Of a stretch of 63,112 bases of DNA, positions 15,211 through 24,927 are shown in pieces. The DNA comes from Acidobacteriota bacterium. Its GTDB lineage: Bacteria > Acidobacteriota > Terriglobia > Bryobacterales > Bryobacteraceae. How positions within the stretch are numbered: position 1 is the stretch's first letter; the number at the start of each line of letters is the position of its first letter. The DNA lies in NCBI GenBank assembly GCA_026394015.1, contig JAPKZA010000497.1, forward strand, positions 1 to 63,112, written 5' to 3'. Under the pieces are notes generated by a model. It was given only the letters and a program-made list of their open reading frames with translations, was not told where the DNA came from and did not search any database. Position numbers and translations under genes: made by a program.

Positions 15211-15291
15211 AGAAATCCGTAATCCATTGATTGCGGATGAGTTAAGTGGTGCGCCCGGAAGGATTCGAACCTCCGGCCTTTTGGTTCGTAG
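15211..15291. repeat. Left attachment repeat (attL) with tRNA-Arg 3' fragment
   Basis: Matches 24847-24927 at 78 of 81 positions; the only differences lie at 15238-15241. Bases 15247-15291 are the 3' 45 nt of tRNA-Arg (minus strand, including CCA) and end within the anticodon loop, after which the sequence diverges. This is the displaced 3' end left by integration. Confidence 0.9.
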
Positions 15292-15689
15292 GCATTGGCG
15301 ACAGCATTCCACCTGCGGATCACTGAAGTTCATCCGTCTAATACTATCAATGTTTTGTTCAGCGTAGGAGGAGCAATCCCTCTTGGTGAACCGTAGGCGC
15401 ACCCCATGATCCGCACCGAGTCGGTACGAAATCCGGTACGGTCCCGAACTGCGACGGATGGCCTGATCACAATTGTCTGCGTCTTGTCAAGGGCGAATGA
15501 AAATAATTATCGTGTTTTCCGTTGATTCGGAAAAATCCGTGATACGATCAGAGTAGATCGGTGGCGGCCATGGGTGAGCGCATCGGTTCGGTGGCGGTCG
15601 CGGTGGACACGCCTCAACGTCGGATTGGCGTATTCCAATCCCTGAGTACCTGCCGATGGCGAGCGGCGGAGCCATGCATGGAGGTGTGA
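15292..15689. other. Left end of the element, no gene seen
   Basis: About 400 bases between the left attachment repeat and the first element gene. No convincing coding region is visible. It holds an AT-rich patch and a palindromic operator-like site (15515-15534), described separately, and a Shine-Dalgarno GGAGG at 15680-15684 for the following gene. Confidence 0.6.
15515..15549 (+). promoter_or_regulatory. Palindromic operator overlapping a possible promoter
   Basis: TTTTCCG (15515-15521) and CGGAAAA (15528-15534) form a perfect inverted repeat with a 6-base spacer. TTGATT (15522-15527) inside it could serve as a -35 box with TACGAT (15544-15549) as a -10 box, spacing 16. A repressor bound to the palindrome would block this rightward promoter of the element. 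Confidence 0.4.
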
Positions 15690-16100
15690 TTGAGGGTTGA
15701 TATCGTCGACGAAGGGCGCTTCGTCAAAGCTGTCACGGAGTTAGAGGCAATTGATTTGGTGTCCGAGGGATTCGCGGAACGGCACCCGAAAAACAAGCGG
15801 AAGTTGGTTCTCGTAGACCGCGTAGTCGAGGCCGTCGAGAACCAGCAACCGACCACGGCGGGCTCTAGTCGAGCCACGTACAAGGTAGGGCCGACCTGGA
15901 TGATGAAACGAGCCACCCCTTCAGGCGGCTTCGTGCGCTGGCGAGATGATGCTGCTATGAGCGATCCAGACGACGGATCCAGGCGCGATGAATGGTCGAA
16001 GAACGGTGAGCGGATGACGAACCGCAGTTCACCAAGCCAAAGGCGAATTCGGCAAGCTATCCAGTTCTTGTCCGACAGAGAAACCCGGATCGCCGCATGA
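15690..16100 (+). CDS. Hypothetical protein, first gene of the element
   Basis: A 136-residue open frame starting at TTG 15690, five bases after GGAGG (15680-15684). The first half is charged and helix-forming (FVKAVTELEAIDLVSEGFAE, LVDRVVEAVENQ); the second half is rich in Ser/Arg and less protein-like. I recognise no domain. An overlapping minus-strand frame (15614-15916) is a poorer candidate. It may be translated only in part, or be an element regulator near the left end. Confidence 0.42.
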   Translation: MRVDIVDEGRFVKAVTELEAIDLVSEGFAERHPKNKRKLVLVDRVVEAVENQQPTTAGSSRATYKVGPTWMMKRATPSGGFVRWRDDAAMSDPDDGSRRDEWSKNGERMTNRSSPSQRRIRQAIQFLSDRETRIAA

Positions 16101-16147
16101 TTCGGCAGTCCGCAGCGCGCGGCGGGACAGCCGCAGGAGGGTAATGA

Positions 16148-22475: not shown

Positions 22476-23695
22476 TTCAGCTATCAGAAGCTGGGCGAGC
22501 GCTACTCGCGACGAAAGGCCGGACGGCGAAGCGGAGCCGTCATCAGACCGGCTGGGTGGAAGAGACCGGGCTGAAGGTCAAGAAGTGGAAGGGCCACTAC
22601 TACACCTACGAGTTCGGCGAGGACGGGCGAGAGCGGCGGGTTCATCGGGCCTCCATTCTTGGTCTCAAGTCGAAGATGCGAAAGGGCGAGGCCCAGGACG
22701 CACTTCGAGTAATCATCGACCGCGAGGTCAACGGGATCATCGCCAAGCCGTCGGGCGCGGTCACGTTGGAATGGTTCTTCCGAGAGCGCTTCATTCCGAT
22801 CCGGAAGGATCTCTGGAAGACGACCCACGCCGACAGAACGGAATACACCATCCGCCGCTACGTCGTCACGCCATTCGCGGCGCTACCGCTGGCGGACGTG
22901 AACCGCTTCGACCTTCAGAAGCACTTGAACGGCTTGGCGAAGACGGCGAGCAATTCGGTAGTTCGGAAGTTCGTGACATGGTCGAGGGCGCTCTTCGACG
23001 AAGCGACGGATCAGGGTTTCATCGCGTTGAACCCAGCCAGGCGGCTGAAGATCCCGGAGACGCGCGAAGTGACGCGGCGGGCGTTGACGATTGATGAGGT
23101 CCGGCTACTGCTGGCGGCGGTCGAGGGACGGGACGCGGTGATTCTCCGGACCTATCTCGTGCTCGGGCTCCGGGCCAGGGAACTCTTCGCTCTCCGGCGG
23201 GACGACGTCGGGGCGGACCGGCTCCGGGTCGATGAGACGGTAGACGAGAAGGGCAACTTCTACAAGCCGAAGACGGCGAGTTCGAAGGCTTCCGTCTGGC
23301 TTCCGCCTTCCCTGGCGGAGACACTCGCGGATTACGTCGGACGGCTCGCGGATCCGAGCCCAAAGGCGCTGCTCTTCGCGACATCGTCGGGCCGTCCGGT
23401 CGAGGCGAATAACTGGCGGAAGCGAGTGCTCCAAGAGGCCGCGAAGGCGTTGGGCATTGAGGGCGTCACGATCCACGCGCTTCGGCGGACTTGCGCTACC
23501 CTCATGATGGGCTGCGGGGACATCAAGGACATCCAGGCTCACCTTCGGCATTCGCGTCCGGAGATCACGGCGGAGGTCTACGTCCAAGAGATTCCGGCGA
23601 ACGTCCGGGCGGCGGTAGAGAAGCTGGCGGAGACGCTGGCGGCGGGTAATGCTGAAGGAGCGGGGAACGATGGGAATCTTCAAGCGGAAGGATAG
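22472..23695 (+). CDS. Tyrosine recombinase (integrase) 1
   Basis: A 407-residue phage-type integrase starting at GTG 22472, overlapping the excisionase-like gene. An N-terminal arm-binding region (KWKGHYYTYEFGEDG), a SAM-like core-binding domain (about 95-190), then the catalytic domain: first Arg in LGLRARELFAL near 225, Lys region KTASSKASVWLP, HALRRT near 330, HLRHSRPEITAEVYVQ near 353 with the second His and the nucleophilic Tyr. All catalytic residues appear present. Its 3' end overlaps the start region of the second integrase. Confidence 0.92.
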   Translation: MIQLSEAGRALLATKGRTAKRSRHQTGWVEETGLKVKKWKGHYYTYEFGEDGRERRVHRASILGLKSKMRKGEAQDALRVIIDREVNGIIAKPSGAVTLEWFFRERFIPIRKDLWKTTHADRTEYTIRRYVVTPFAALPLADVNRFDLQKHLNGLAKTASNSVVRKFVTWSRALFDEATDQGFIALNPARRLKIPETREVTRRALTIDEVRLLLAAVEGRDAVILRTYLVLGLRARELFALRRDDVGADRLRVDETVDEKGNFYKPKTASSKASVWLPPSLAETLADYVGRLADPSPKALLFATSSGRPVEANNWRKRVLQEAAKALGIEGVTIHALRRTCATLMMGCGDIKDIQAHLRHSRPEITAEVYVQEIPANVRAAVEKLAETLAAGNAEGAGNDGNLQAEG

Positions 23696-24866
23696 TAAGC
23701 ATTGGTGGTACCGCTTCGAGTGGCACGGCAAAGAGATCAGCAAGAGCACAAAGCAGGGTAATCGGCGCGTCGCTGAGCAGATGGAGCAGGTACACCGTGC
23801 GAAATTGGCCATGGGCGAGGTCGGGATCAGGGAGGCGAAGAAGGCCCCCACGTTGAAAGAATTCGCAGATGGCAGGTTCGGCGAGTTCATTCGAGTCCAG
23901 TTCGCGGGGCAGCCGGGGAACTTGGCGTACTATCAATCCGGGCTCCGGGCCTTACTGGAGGTCGGCGAGATGGCGAACGCTCGCATTGACTCGATCCGCC
24001 AAGACGCGATCACCGCGGCGATCTCCAAATGGACGGACAGCGGGTATGAGGTATCGACGATAAACCGACGGCTCCAGGTACTCAGGCGCATGTTCAAGCT
24101 GGCAACGGAGTGGGAGATCGTGGAAAAGTCGCTGGCGACCGTCAGGATGGTGCCAGGCGAGAACAAGCGCGACCGCGTTCTAAGCGTCGAGGAGGAGAGG
24201 GCCTATTTCGAGGGCGCGACGGCCGTCGGCGAAGAGCTTCTCAGGGATTACGAGCGAGCGCTGAAGGGAATCCGGGCAACGAAAAGGGGCGAGGCCCCCA
24301 CGGCTCCGGCTGATCCCTATCTGTTGCGGGACGTCTCCACCATGCTGCTGGAATGTGCGCTCCGGCCAGAGGAATGCTTCCGGCTCCGATGGGACGAGAT
24401 CCACGACGGGGCCATCCGCGTCGCCCATGGAAAGACGGCCAACGCGCGGAGGGTCGTCCCGCTACCGGAGAGGGCGAGCGCGGTCGTCGAGATGCGCAGG
24501 GCGGGCGCGGCGGACGGTGCCGAGTGGGTGTTTCCAGCGGCTACGAAGGCAGGCCATATCGATTCTTCGACGGTGCGAAAGCAGCATGCAAAGGCGTGCG
24601 CACTGGCTGAGATGGATCACTTCCCGCTCTACACGTTCCGCCATACCTGCCTAACGAACTGGGCGAGGGTGATGGACCCCTACGTTTTAGCGAAACTGGC
24701 CGGTCATGCTGATTTTGCGACGACTCGTCGATACGTACACCCGCAAGTCGATCAGGTGTTGGATGCGATGGCAAAAGCGGCGGAAGCGCGGGGTCGGTAC
24801 GATTCCCGGAACAGTGACGTTCCAGCGGTCAATCCCGGTCCCGTCGAGAAATCCGTAATCCATTGA
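23670..24866 (+). CDS. Tyrosine recombinase (integrase) 2, ending inside attR
   Basis: A 398-residue integrase. ATG 23670 has GGAG at about 23657-23660, so it is preferred to ATG 23649. The N-terminal domain has YRFEWHGKEISKSTKQGNRR, the core-binding domain lies at about 80-170, and the catalytic domain shows CALRPEECFRLRWDEI (Arg I), GKTANARRVVPLP (Lys), LYTFRHTCLTNWA (His-x-x-Arg equivalent FRHT) and LAGHADFATTRRYVHP (His and Tyr). The last six codons and stop lie in the right attachment repeat, which places this gene directly at the element end, the usual position of the integrase that made the insertion. Confidence 0.92.
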   Translation: MGIFKRKDSKHWWYRFEWHGKEISKSTKQGNRRVAEQMEQVHRAKLAMGEVGIREAKKAPTLKEFADGRFGEFIRVQFAGQPGNLAYYQSGLRALLEVGEMANARIDSIRQDAITAAISKWTDSGYEVSTINRRLQVLRRMFKLATEWEIVEKSLATVRMVPGENKRDRVLSVEEERAYFEGATAVGEELLRDYERALKGIRATKRGEAPTAPADPYLLRDVSTMLLECALRPEECFRLRWDEIHDGAIRVAHGKTANARRVVPLPERASAVVEMRRAGAADGAEWVFPAATKAGHIDSSTVRKQHAKACALAEMDHFPLYTFRHTCLTNWARVMDPYVLAKLAGHADFATTRRYVHPQVDQVLDAMAKAAEARGRYDSRNSDVPAVNPGPVEKSVIH

Positions 24867-24927
24867 TTGCGGAAGGTTTAAGTGGTGCGCCCGGAAGGAT
24901 TCGAACCTCCGGCCTTTTGGTTCGTAG
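24847..24927. repeat. Right attachment repeat (attR), within tRNA-Arg and integrase end
   Basis: Matches 15211-15291 at 78 of 81 positions. It spans the last codons of integrase 2 and the 3' 45 bases of the complete tRNA-Arg gene, ending in the anticodon loop. The crossover must lie within the identical 50-base block 24878-24927. Confidence 0.9.

Follow-up and report, generated by a model that had tools for sequence, protein, structure and literature searches.

Boundaries and gene content of the element

The window analysed here is the whole of a 63,112-nucleotide stretch from an Acidobacteriota bacterium of the family Bryobacteraceae (contig JAPKZA010000497.1 of assembly GCA_026394015.1, called genome G000 below). 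It carries an integrative element of about 9.6 kb, inserted in a tRNA-Arg(ACG) gene, which is probably a helper-dependent satellite of a tailed-phage group of acidobacteria. The element is bounded by a direct repeat of 88 nt (15207-15294 and 24843-24930; 94% identity, 5 mismatches) whose copies start 9636 nt apart. The original prediction described it as an 81-bp repeat with 3 mismatches; the repeat is real, and the shorter version is the inner part of the 88 nt. It stands far above chance, since the next-longest direct repeats between 14000 and 26000 reach at most 37 nt and are at most 73% alike, a 63-bp tandem repeat excepted. The sole tRNA found within the window is a tRNA-Arg(ACG), and the predicted tie between the repeat and a complete tRNA holds: the right copy covers the tRNA 3' part (24883-24930) and completes the gene, while the left copy contains a fragment of it. 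In both flanks the GC skew lies at about -0.24 to -0.35, and it turns positive within the element. The features, among which ORF stands for open reading frame and HTH for helix-turn-helix, are the following.

15207..15294, no strand: attL, left 88-nt repeat copy, made of a tRNA-Arg 3' fragment and about 40 nt (repeat search)
15423..15442, plus strand: arm-type-like repeat inside attL, putative role
15690..16100, plus strand: doubtful ORF of 136 aa with a TTG start and no family match
16148..16336, plus strand: AlpA/excisionase-like HTH protein (HTH_17; Pfam 2.7e-10, phrog_66 1.7e-9)
16344..17195, plus strand: sigma-70 factor with regions 1.2, 2 and 3, lacking region 4 (Pfam, PHROGs)
16894..17019, plus strand: exact in-frame 63-bp tandem duplication within the sigma gene (repeat search)
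17311..17481, plus strand: small ORF of 56 aa, no assignment in Pfam or PHROGs
17484..18320, plus strand: replication initiator or primosomal protein, rep (phrog_9474 4.2e-14)
18321..18707, plus strand: terminase small subunit, TerS (phrog_4102 1.2e-34)
18918..19412, plus strand: head scaffold homologue of 164 aa (phrog_206 1.1e-5; scaffold profile 57.4 bits; tree; fold)
19576..20202, plus strand: neck or tail-completion homologue of 208 aa (homologues, gene position, fold)
20252..21121, plus strand: 289-aa ORF that, judged by eye, likely contains a membrane helix; perhaps cargo
21366..22040, plus strand: small serine recombinase of the resolvase type (Pfam 1.5e-41; 59% identical in genome G006)
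22067..22291, plus strand: small ORF of 74 aa without assignment
22257..22475, plus strand: second AlpA-like HTH protein, alpA2, overlapping integrase 1 (Pfam, PHROGs)
22472..23695, plus strand: tyrosine integrase 1, int1 (Pfam, PHROGs; 46-48% identical to the integrase of prophage G543)
23649..24866, plus strand: tyrosine integrase 2, with its 3' end within attR (Pfam, PHROGs; relatives beside tRNA genes)
24796..24815, plus strand: arm-type-like repeat inside attR, putative role
24843..24930, no strand: attR, right repeat copy, overlapping the integrase 2 3' end and the tRNA 3' part
24883..24959, minus strand: intact tRNA-Arg(ACG), the attachment target

All called genes of the element point in the same direction and have intact reading frames. 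The gene set agrees with the original prediction, namely HTH, sigma-like, replication, TerS-like and morphogenesis-like proteins and recombinases. The Pfam and PHROGs scans took in 14 ORFs of the element (one of them doubtful). The earlier gene list was incomplete, and the scaffold homologue and the second tyrosine integrase had to be added to it.

Neither a large terminase nor a portal, capsid or tail gene came out of these scans. In the same way, a tblastn search with the ORFs of two helper-type prophages, limited to those of 80 aa or more, matched the window at the neck, rep and integrase genes only, so that the absence of a large terminase, portal and major capsid was borne out by both approaches. 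This search found no remnant of broken or partial virion genes either; its ORF list omits the TerS and scaffold of prophage G474, which are hidden by an antisense ORF, and the scaffold of G543 gave no match to the window. No primase was found in the element and no lysis gene was recognised. PADLOC, run on seven element proteins, returned one match, of the sigma-like protein to MzaA.

The tRNA target in related genomes and the probable role of integrase 2

An empty site, expected if the element is mobile, was found in the sister genome G001, where matching flanks surround one intact tRNA-Arg(ACG) without the element. There, relatives of two left-flank genes of the window (85% and 77% identical; AMP-ligase and permease, by eye) abut the tRNA, and the right-flank glycosyltransferase (84%) lies on its other side, followed by EamA and radical-SAM genes. 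No integrase match was found at this locus. More widely, among 28 loci looked at, the pairing of tRNA-Arg(ACG) with the glycosyltransferase is kept in 12 of the 18 other genomes of the genus. One of these 12 (G011) has a full-length relative of integrase 2 (58%) in a stretch that also holds a pair similar to the arm-type-like repeats of the element; two (G004 and G018) have integrase-2 fragments, and one (G002) ends at a contig edge. In the remaining eight, no element protein was seen within 1.5 kb of the locus. Other ORFs separate the permease from the tRNA in G016 and G017, and the window has an additional 679-aa gene in that position. The left-flank gene at 13162-15201 was discarded as an empty-site probe, its full-length relatives being at most 48% identical.

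The enzyme for the tRNA-Arg(ACG) site is likely integrase 2, since attR contains the end of its gene and its relatives lie beside tRNA genes. Such relatives occur in 38 of 237 genomes of the family at E <= 1e-60, and 13 of the 15 full-length ones looked at adjoin a tRNA gene, the other two being at contig ends. As int1 and alpA2 resemble their counterparts in the tRNA-Lys prophage of G543 (45% identity between alpA2 and the gene beside the prophage integrase), the element may have changed its attachment site during its history.

About 40 nt past the tRNA end (15207-15246 and 24843-24882) are nearly alike in both att copies, and in attR they take in the 3' end of integrase 2. They may have been left by an earlier element at the site.

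Relatives of integrase 2 also occur in other islands of the family. An 8.4-kb element in a tRNA-Arg(TCG) gene (L164, G648:C39, 4825-13281), flanked by 52-nt repeats (96%), carries such a relative with a different small terminase (phrog_51, 8e-14) and an AAA ATPase, and is possibly another satellite. A 13.1-kb element in a tRNA-Pro gene (L165, G520:C296, 334-13509), with identical 51-nt repeats, combines an integrase-2 relative with a serine recombinase 66% like that of the window; no match to the packaging genes of the window element was found in it.

Packaging and morphogenesis genes related to those of tailed phages

The TerS, scaffold and neck proteins of the element are related to those of a group of tailed phages (L079, L081 and L177) and prophages (in G474, G543, G550 and G626), which are here called helper-type. 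All of these carry a large terminase, portal and capsid, with tail genes where the contig reaches. Thus, G474, G543 and G626 hold head and tail genes, while G550 shows terminase, portal, scaffold, capsid and neck before its contig ends. Two IMG/VR records of the group measure 47.5 and 48.7 kb, and the gene order in IMG/VR is TerL - portal - scaffold - capsid - MuF - neck - major tail - tape measure. The TerS has relatives in G006, a genome of the same genus, and in prophage G474. Besides the morphogenesis genes, prophage G543, which adjoins a tRNA-Lys gene, has counterparts of the rep, AlpA-like alpA2 and int1 genes of the element, rep being 41% identical over 86 aa.

The neck assignment relies on the match of the L081 homologue to phrog_26 (1.3e-5), on gene position and on weak matches in BFVD. 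The 208-aa protein itself has no match in Pfam or PHROGs and none by tblastn among named phages. Its model (pLDDT 87) has two BFVD matches below 0.001 (8.9e-15 and 4.1e-6), both unnamed or uncharacterised; proteins named for virion morphogenesis or tail completion follow at 1.5e-3 to 4e-3, their TM values being 0.34-0.45. A Foldseek comparison with PDB gave no match at E <= 0.001. The neck protein was found in 7 of the 237 family genomes: four times beside virion genes, once in the window's element, once at a contig end (G645) and once as a weak match (G465).

Homologues that always lie in full-length prophages had been named beforehand as an observation that would speak against a satellite. 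This is nearly what the neck gene gives, as each of the 20 IMG/VR neck loci shares its fetched stretch with two or more further virion genes (capsid matched in 16, major tail in 19 and large terminase in 7; many of the stretches are truncated); the G006 locus described below differs.

For the scaffold, a hidden Markov model of 27 rows scores both satellite scaffolds, that of the element and that of G006, at 57-62 bits; the rows, found with a satellite query, include one from prophage G550 and two duplicate pairs, and no satellite. The model of the protein (pLDDT 80) matches best, in BFVD, a GP20 minor structural protein (2.4e-7), with scaffolding proteins at about 3e-3, and tblastn against named phages gives four weak matches at 0.09. 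That the match could be a coiled-coil artefact or a host core protein was dismissed, as the copies inspected sit between portal-like and capsid genes.

A second member and the history of the scaffold

A second member of the lineage was found in G006. One 4.4-kb contig of this genome carries, in that order, rep-like, TerS, MuF-like, scaffold and serine recombinase genes, with identities to the element of 48% for TerS, 45% for the scaffold and 59% for the recombinase; the MuF-like gene is 42-44% identical to phage MuF. This contig has no neck gene, and no large terminase, portal or capsid gene lies between TerS, scaffold and recombinase, where there is no room for them. No end overlap was found between it and the integrase contigs of G006. 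A search of genome contigs gave one locus, the G006-like contig, and scans of viral contigs with a single TerS, a single scaffold or a two-row scaffold profile gave nothing. The distant TerS matches in G298, G445 and G158 were not retained as members: terminase-like ORFs (by eye) lie nearby and no other gene is common to them and the element.

In the scaffold tree, whose 44 sequences were a non-random choice made by hand or for their best score, the element and its G006 relative form a sister pair (96/92) that groups with phages L177, L080 and L081 (96/91), while 24 chromosomal copies form a separate clade (100/100). Both satellite scaffolds lack the middle segment, from the N-terminal motif to the long helix, and keep the N- and C-terminal motifs. 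They are 164-167 aa long versus 211-330 aa in 18 phage rows, whose start positions are unverified and one of which is shortened by a contig end. Between the element and G006, codon position 3 differs more than positions 1 and 2 (p = 0.009 for TerS, 8e-5 for the scaffold and 5e-17 for the recombinase), a pattern that fits selection on working proteins. The divergent G006 relative and the lack of the middle segment shared by sister scaffolds favour a maintained satellite lineage over a freshly decayed prophage.

The chromosomal scaffold copies belong to a subject of their own. A phage-derived cluster of about 16 kb lies at C555 of G000 (6359-20846; L055 and L056) and at C6 of G017 (417285-433850; L063 and L064). 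The G017 cluster contains large terminase, portal, scaffold, capsid, tail and J-like hub genes, and that of G000 is cut within the portal by a contig end. In G000, G017, G003 and G014 the cluster adjoins genes that were assigned by eye to the ilv/leu type, and scaffold matches, phage copies included, occur in 184 of the 237 family genomes. No integrase was noticed by eye in the G000 and G017 clusters, where no integrase search was made, and next to the G620 cluster lies an ORF similar to a portion of an integrase. This cluster is a candidate gene transfer agent (GTA); among the titles listed from the open-licence literature, none is about a comparable acidobacterial locus.

The sigma factor

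Residues 63-202 of the element's sigma factor share about 40% identity with host sigma factors, and inspection by eye of the forward frames that follow the gene revealed no region 4. Among the six helper-type phages with several kb upstream of the terminase in hand, four (L081, G474, G471 and G543) encode a stand-alone region-4 protein in that place, G550 encodes a protein with both region 2 and region 4, and G626 gives no match to the region-4 profile. As this profile was built from L081, G474, G471, G543 and G550, G626 is its sole independent test among these six, and a negative one. The stand-alone proteins upstream of terminase genes lie as follows.

L081, 2468-2707: stand-alone sigma region-4 protein
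L111, 11670-11903: stand-alone sigma region-4 protein
L113, 2112-2357, minus strand: stand-alone sigma region-4 protein
L298, 6721-7005: stand-alone sigma region-4 protein

It is conceivable, if rather unlikely, that induction needs a sigma factor split across two genomes, the satellite providing regions 1.2 to 3 and the helper a free-standing region 4. To our knowledge, no such switching of satellites is known, and a helper-dependent switch of this type would be new for them.

Satellite or reduced prophage

The original prediction left the choice between a phage satellite and a strongly reduced prophage. The satellite is favoured, and the element probably arose from helper-group phages or took genes from them. 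Several points weigh against this preference. It rests on sequence evidence. Two members only were found, the second confined to its 4.4-kb contig. Direct matches of rep, alpA2, int1 and neck to G543 make an origin by prophage reduction likely, and the element may have lost its function. The scaffolds of the element and of G543 give no pairwise match at E 1e-3 and are linked through other phages and profiles; this, together with the equally short chromosomal scaffolds (167-215 aa for the 24 copies, so that a short scaffold is not peculiar to satellites), weakens the satellite interpretation. Since the scaffold family was gathered with a satellite query, its independent support comes from the position between portal and capsid genes. 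TerS alone was rejected as a satellite marker, being too common to be more than a weak one (relatives in at least 540 of 600 IMG/VR candidate stretches). No second neck gene was found in G000 (97% complete, 574 contigs), so that nothing points to a helper of this group residing there. Finally, the duplication in the sigma gene and its missing region 4 could be marks of decay.

The alternative is a strongly reduced, non-transferable prophage, whose terminase, portal, capsid and tail were deleted and whose remainder is a domesticated or decaying relic. Such a relic is clearly less probable than a satellite, and the G543 matches give it real weight; the order TerS - scaffold - neck is also collinear with phages. 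Against it, no other virion-gene remnant was found with the prophage ORFs, the codon positions fit selection, and the same shortening of the scaffold is seen in two divergent members, which also agree, within what the 4.4-kb contig shows, in lacking large terminase, portal and capsid. Furthermore, the order TerS - MuF - scaffold in G006 does not result from a simple deletion of the phage order. The GTA-like cluster at C555 of the same genome, with its homologous scaffold about as short as that of the satellite, suggests another possibility, packaging of the element in GTA particles as a satellite of the cluster. This is very improbable, given that the satellite scaffolds cluster with phages outside the chromosomal clade, that the cluster seemingly lacks a neck homologue (G000 has the satellite's copy only), and that the neck matches 7 of 237 genomes versus 184 for the scaffold. 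Equally improbable is an ordinary tRNA island carrying passive phage cargo on an integrase-2 and serine-recombinase chassis. Relatives of integrase 2 do lie beside tRNA genes in islands with other cargo (G520, G648 and G499), but the element holds three morphogenesis genes whose functions are linked and whose order is that of phages, and TerS and scaffold are kept in the second lineage.

Proposed mechanism and comparison with known satellites

For a satellite, the gene content suggests the following cycle, in which packaging, head resizing and helper dependence are proposed by analogy. Infection by a helper would lead to excision through integrase 2 and an AlpA-like protein, and replication would start from the element's own initiator. 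The small terminase could be lent to the large terminase of the helper, so that satellite DNA would be selected for packaging. The shorter scaffold, with its conserved C-terminal end, would enter procapsid assembly and, like CpmB of SaPI1, favour heads that are smaller or that the helper cannot use, while the neck protein of the element may keep these heads compatible with helper tails.

As in satellites generally, the element is integrated, possesses its own integrase, regulation and replication genes, and lacks large terminase, portal, capsid and tail genes. P4-like satellites are characterised by an alpha primase-helicase, Psu, Delta and Sid; no P4-type match came out of the Pfam and PHROGs scans of the 14 ORFs, in the absence of a dedicated search. 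Capsid-forming phage-inducible chromosomal islands (cf-PICIs) are satellites with morphogenesis genes that encode their own capsid, portal and large terminase, whereas the element has none of these. It is also like the helper group itself, for scaffold and neck and partly for TerS (G474) and rep, alpA and integrase (G543); unlike the element, L079, L081, L177, G474, G543, G550 and G626 have the large terminase, portal and capsid.

Gram-negative PICIs, as outlined in PMC6092414, combine an integrase, an AlpA-type regulator, replication genes and sometimes a TerS in one transcription direction. The element resembles them in its integrase, AlpA-like protein, replication gene, TerS and single direction, and in the lack of capsid, portal and large terminase. 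It differs by its scaffold and neck homologues, sigma factor, serine recombinase and two integrases, by its size (9.6 kb versus typically about 15 kb) and by the lack of a recognised primase. The PICI criterion that att sites are unused by prophages is touched by G011, where another integrase-2 element occupies the same tRNA.

According to PMC5644958, CpmB of SaPI1 and the helper scaffold have the same C-terminal coat-binding motif, by which CpmB competes with that scaffold. The likeness lies in a satellite-encoded scaffold-type protein having a C-terminal motif in common with phage scaffolds. Sid of P4 (PMC7552001) and TcaP of PLE (PMC10945586) are capsid-size redirection proteins like CpmB. 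Unlike all three, the protein of the element is a shortened homologue of the phage scaffold, with a putative effect on head size.

Significance for the Acidobacteriota

Most of what is known about satellites comes from Proteobacteria and Firmicutes. One Streptomyces system is also on record, and PMC5900883, which describes acidobacterial prophages, notes that those lacking virion genes could be satellites. In agreement with the original prediction, no description of a phage satellite from Acidobacteriota was found in the open-licence full-text literature. An acidobacterial satellite with a shortened scaffold of the helper group would, if true, mean that satellites arise by reduction of a helper or by capture of its genes. 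With a helper group already named by sequence, the element would also make it possible to test directly if the length of the scaffold determines the size of the head.

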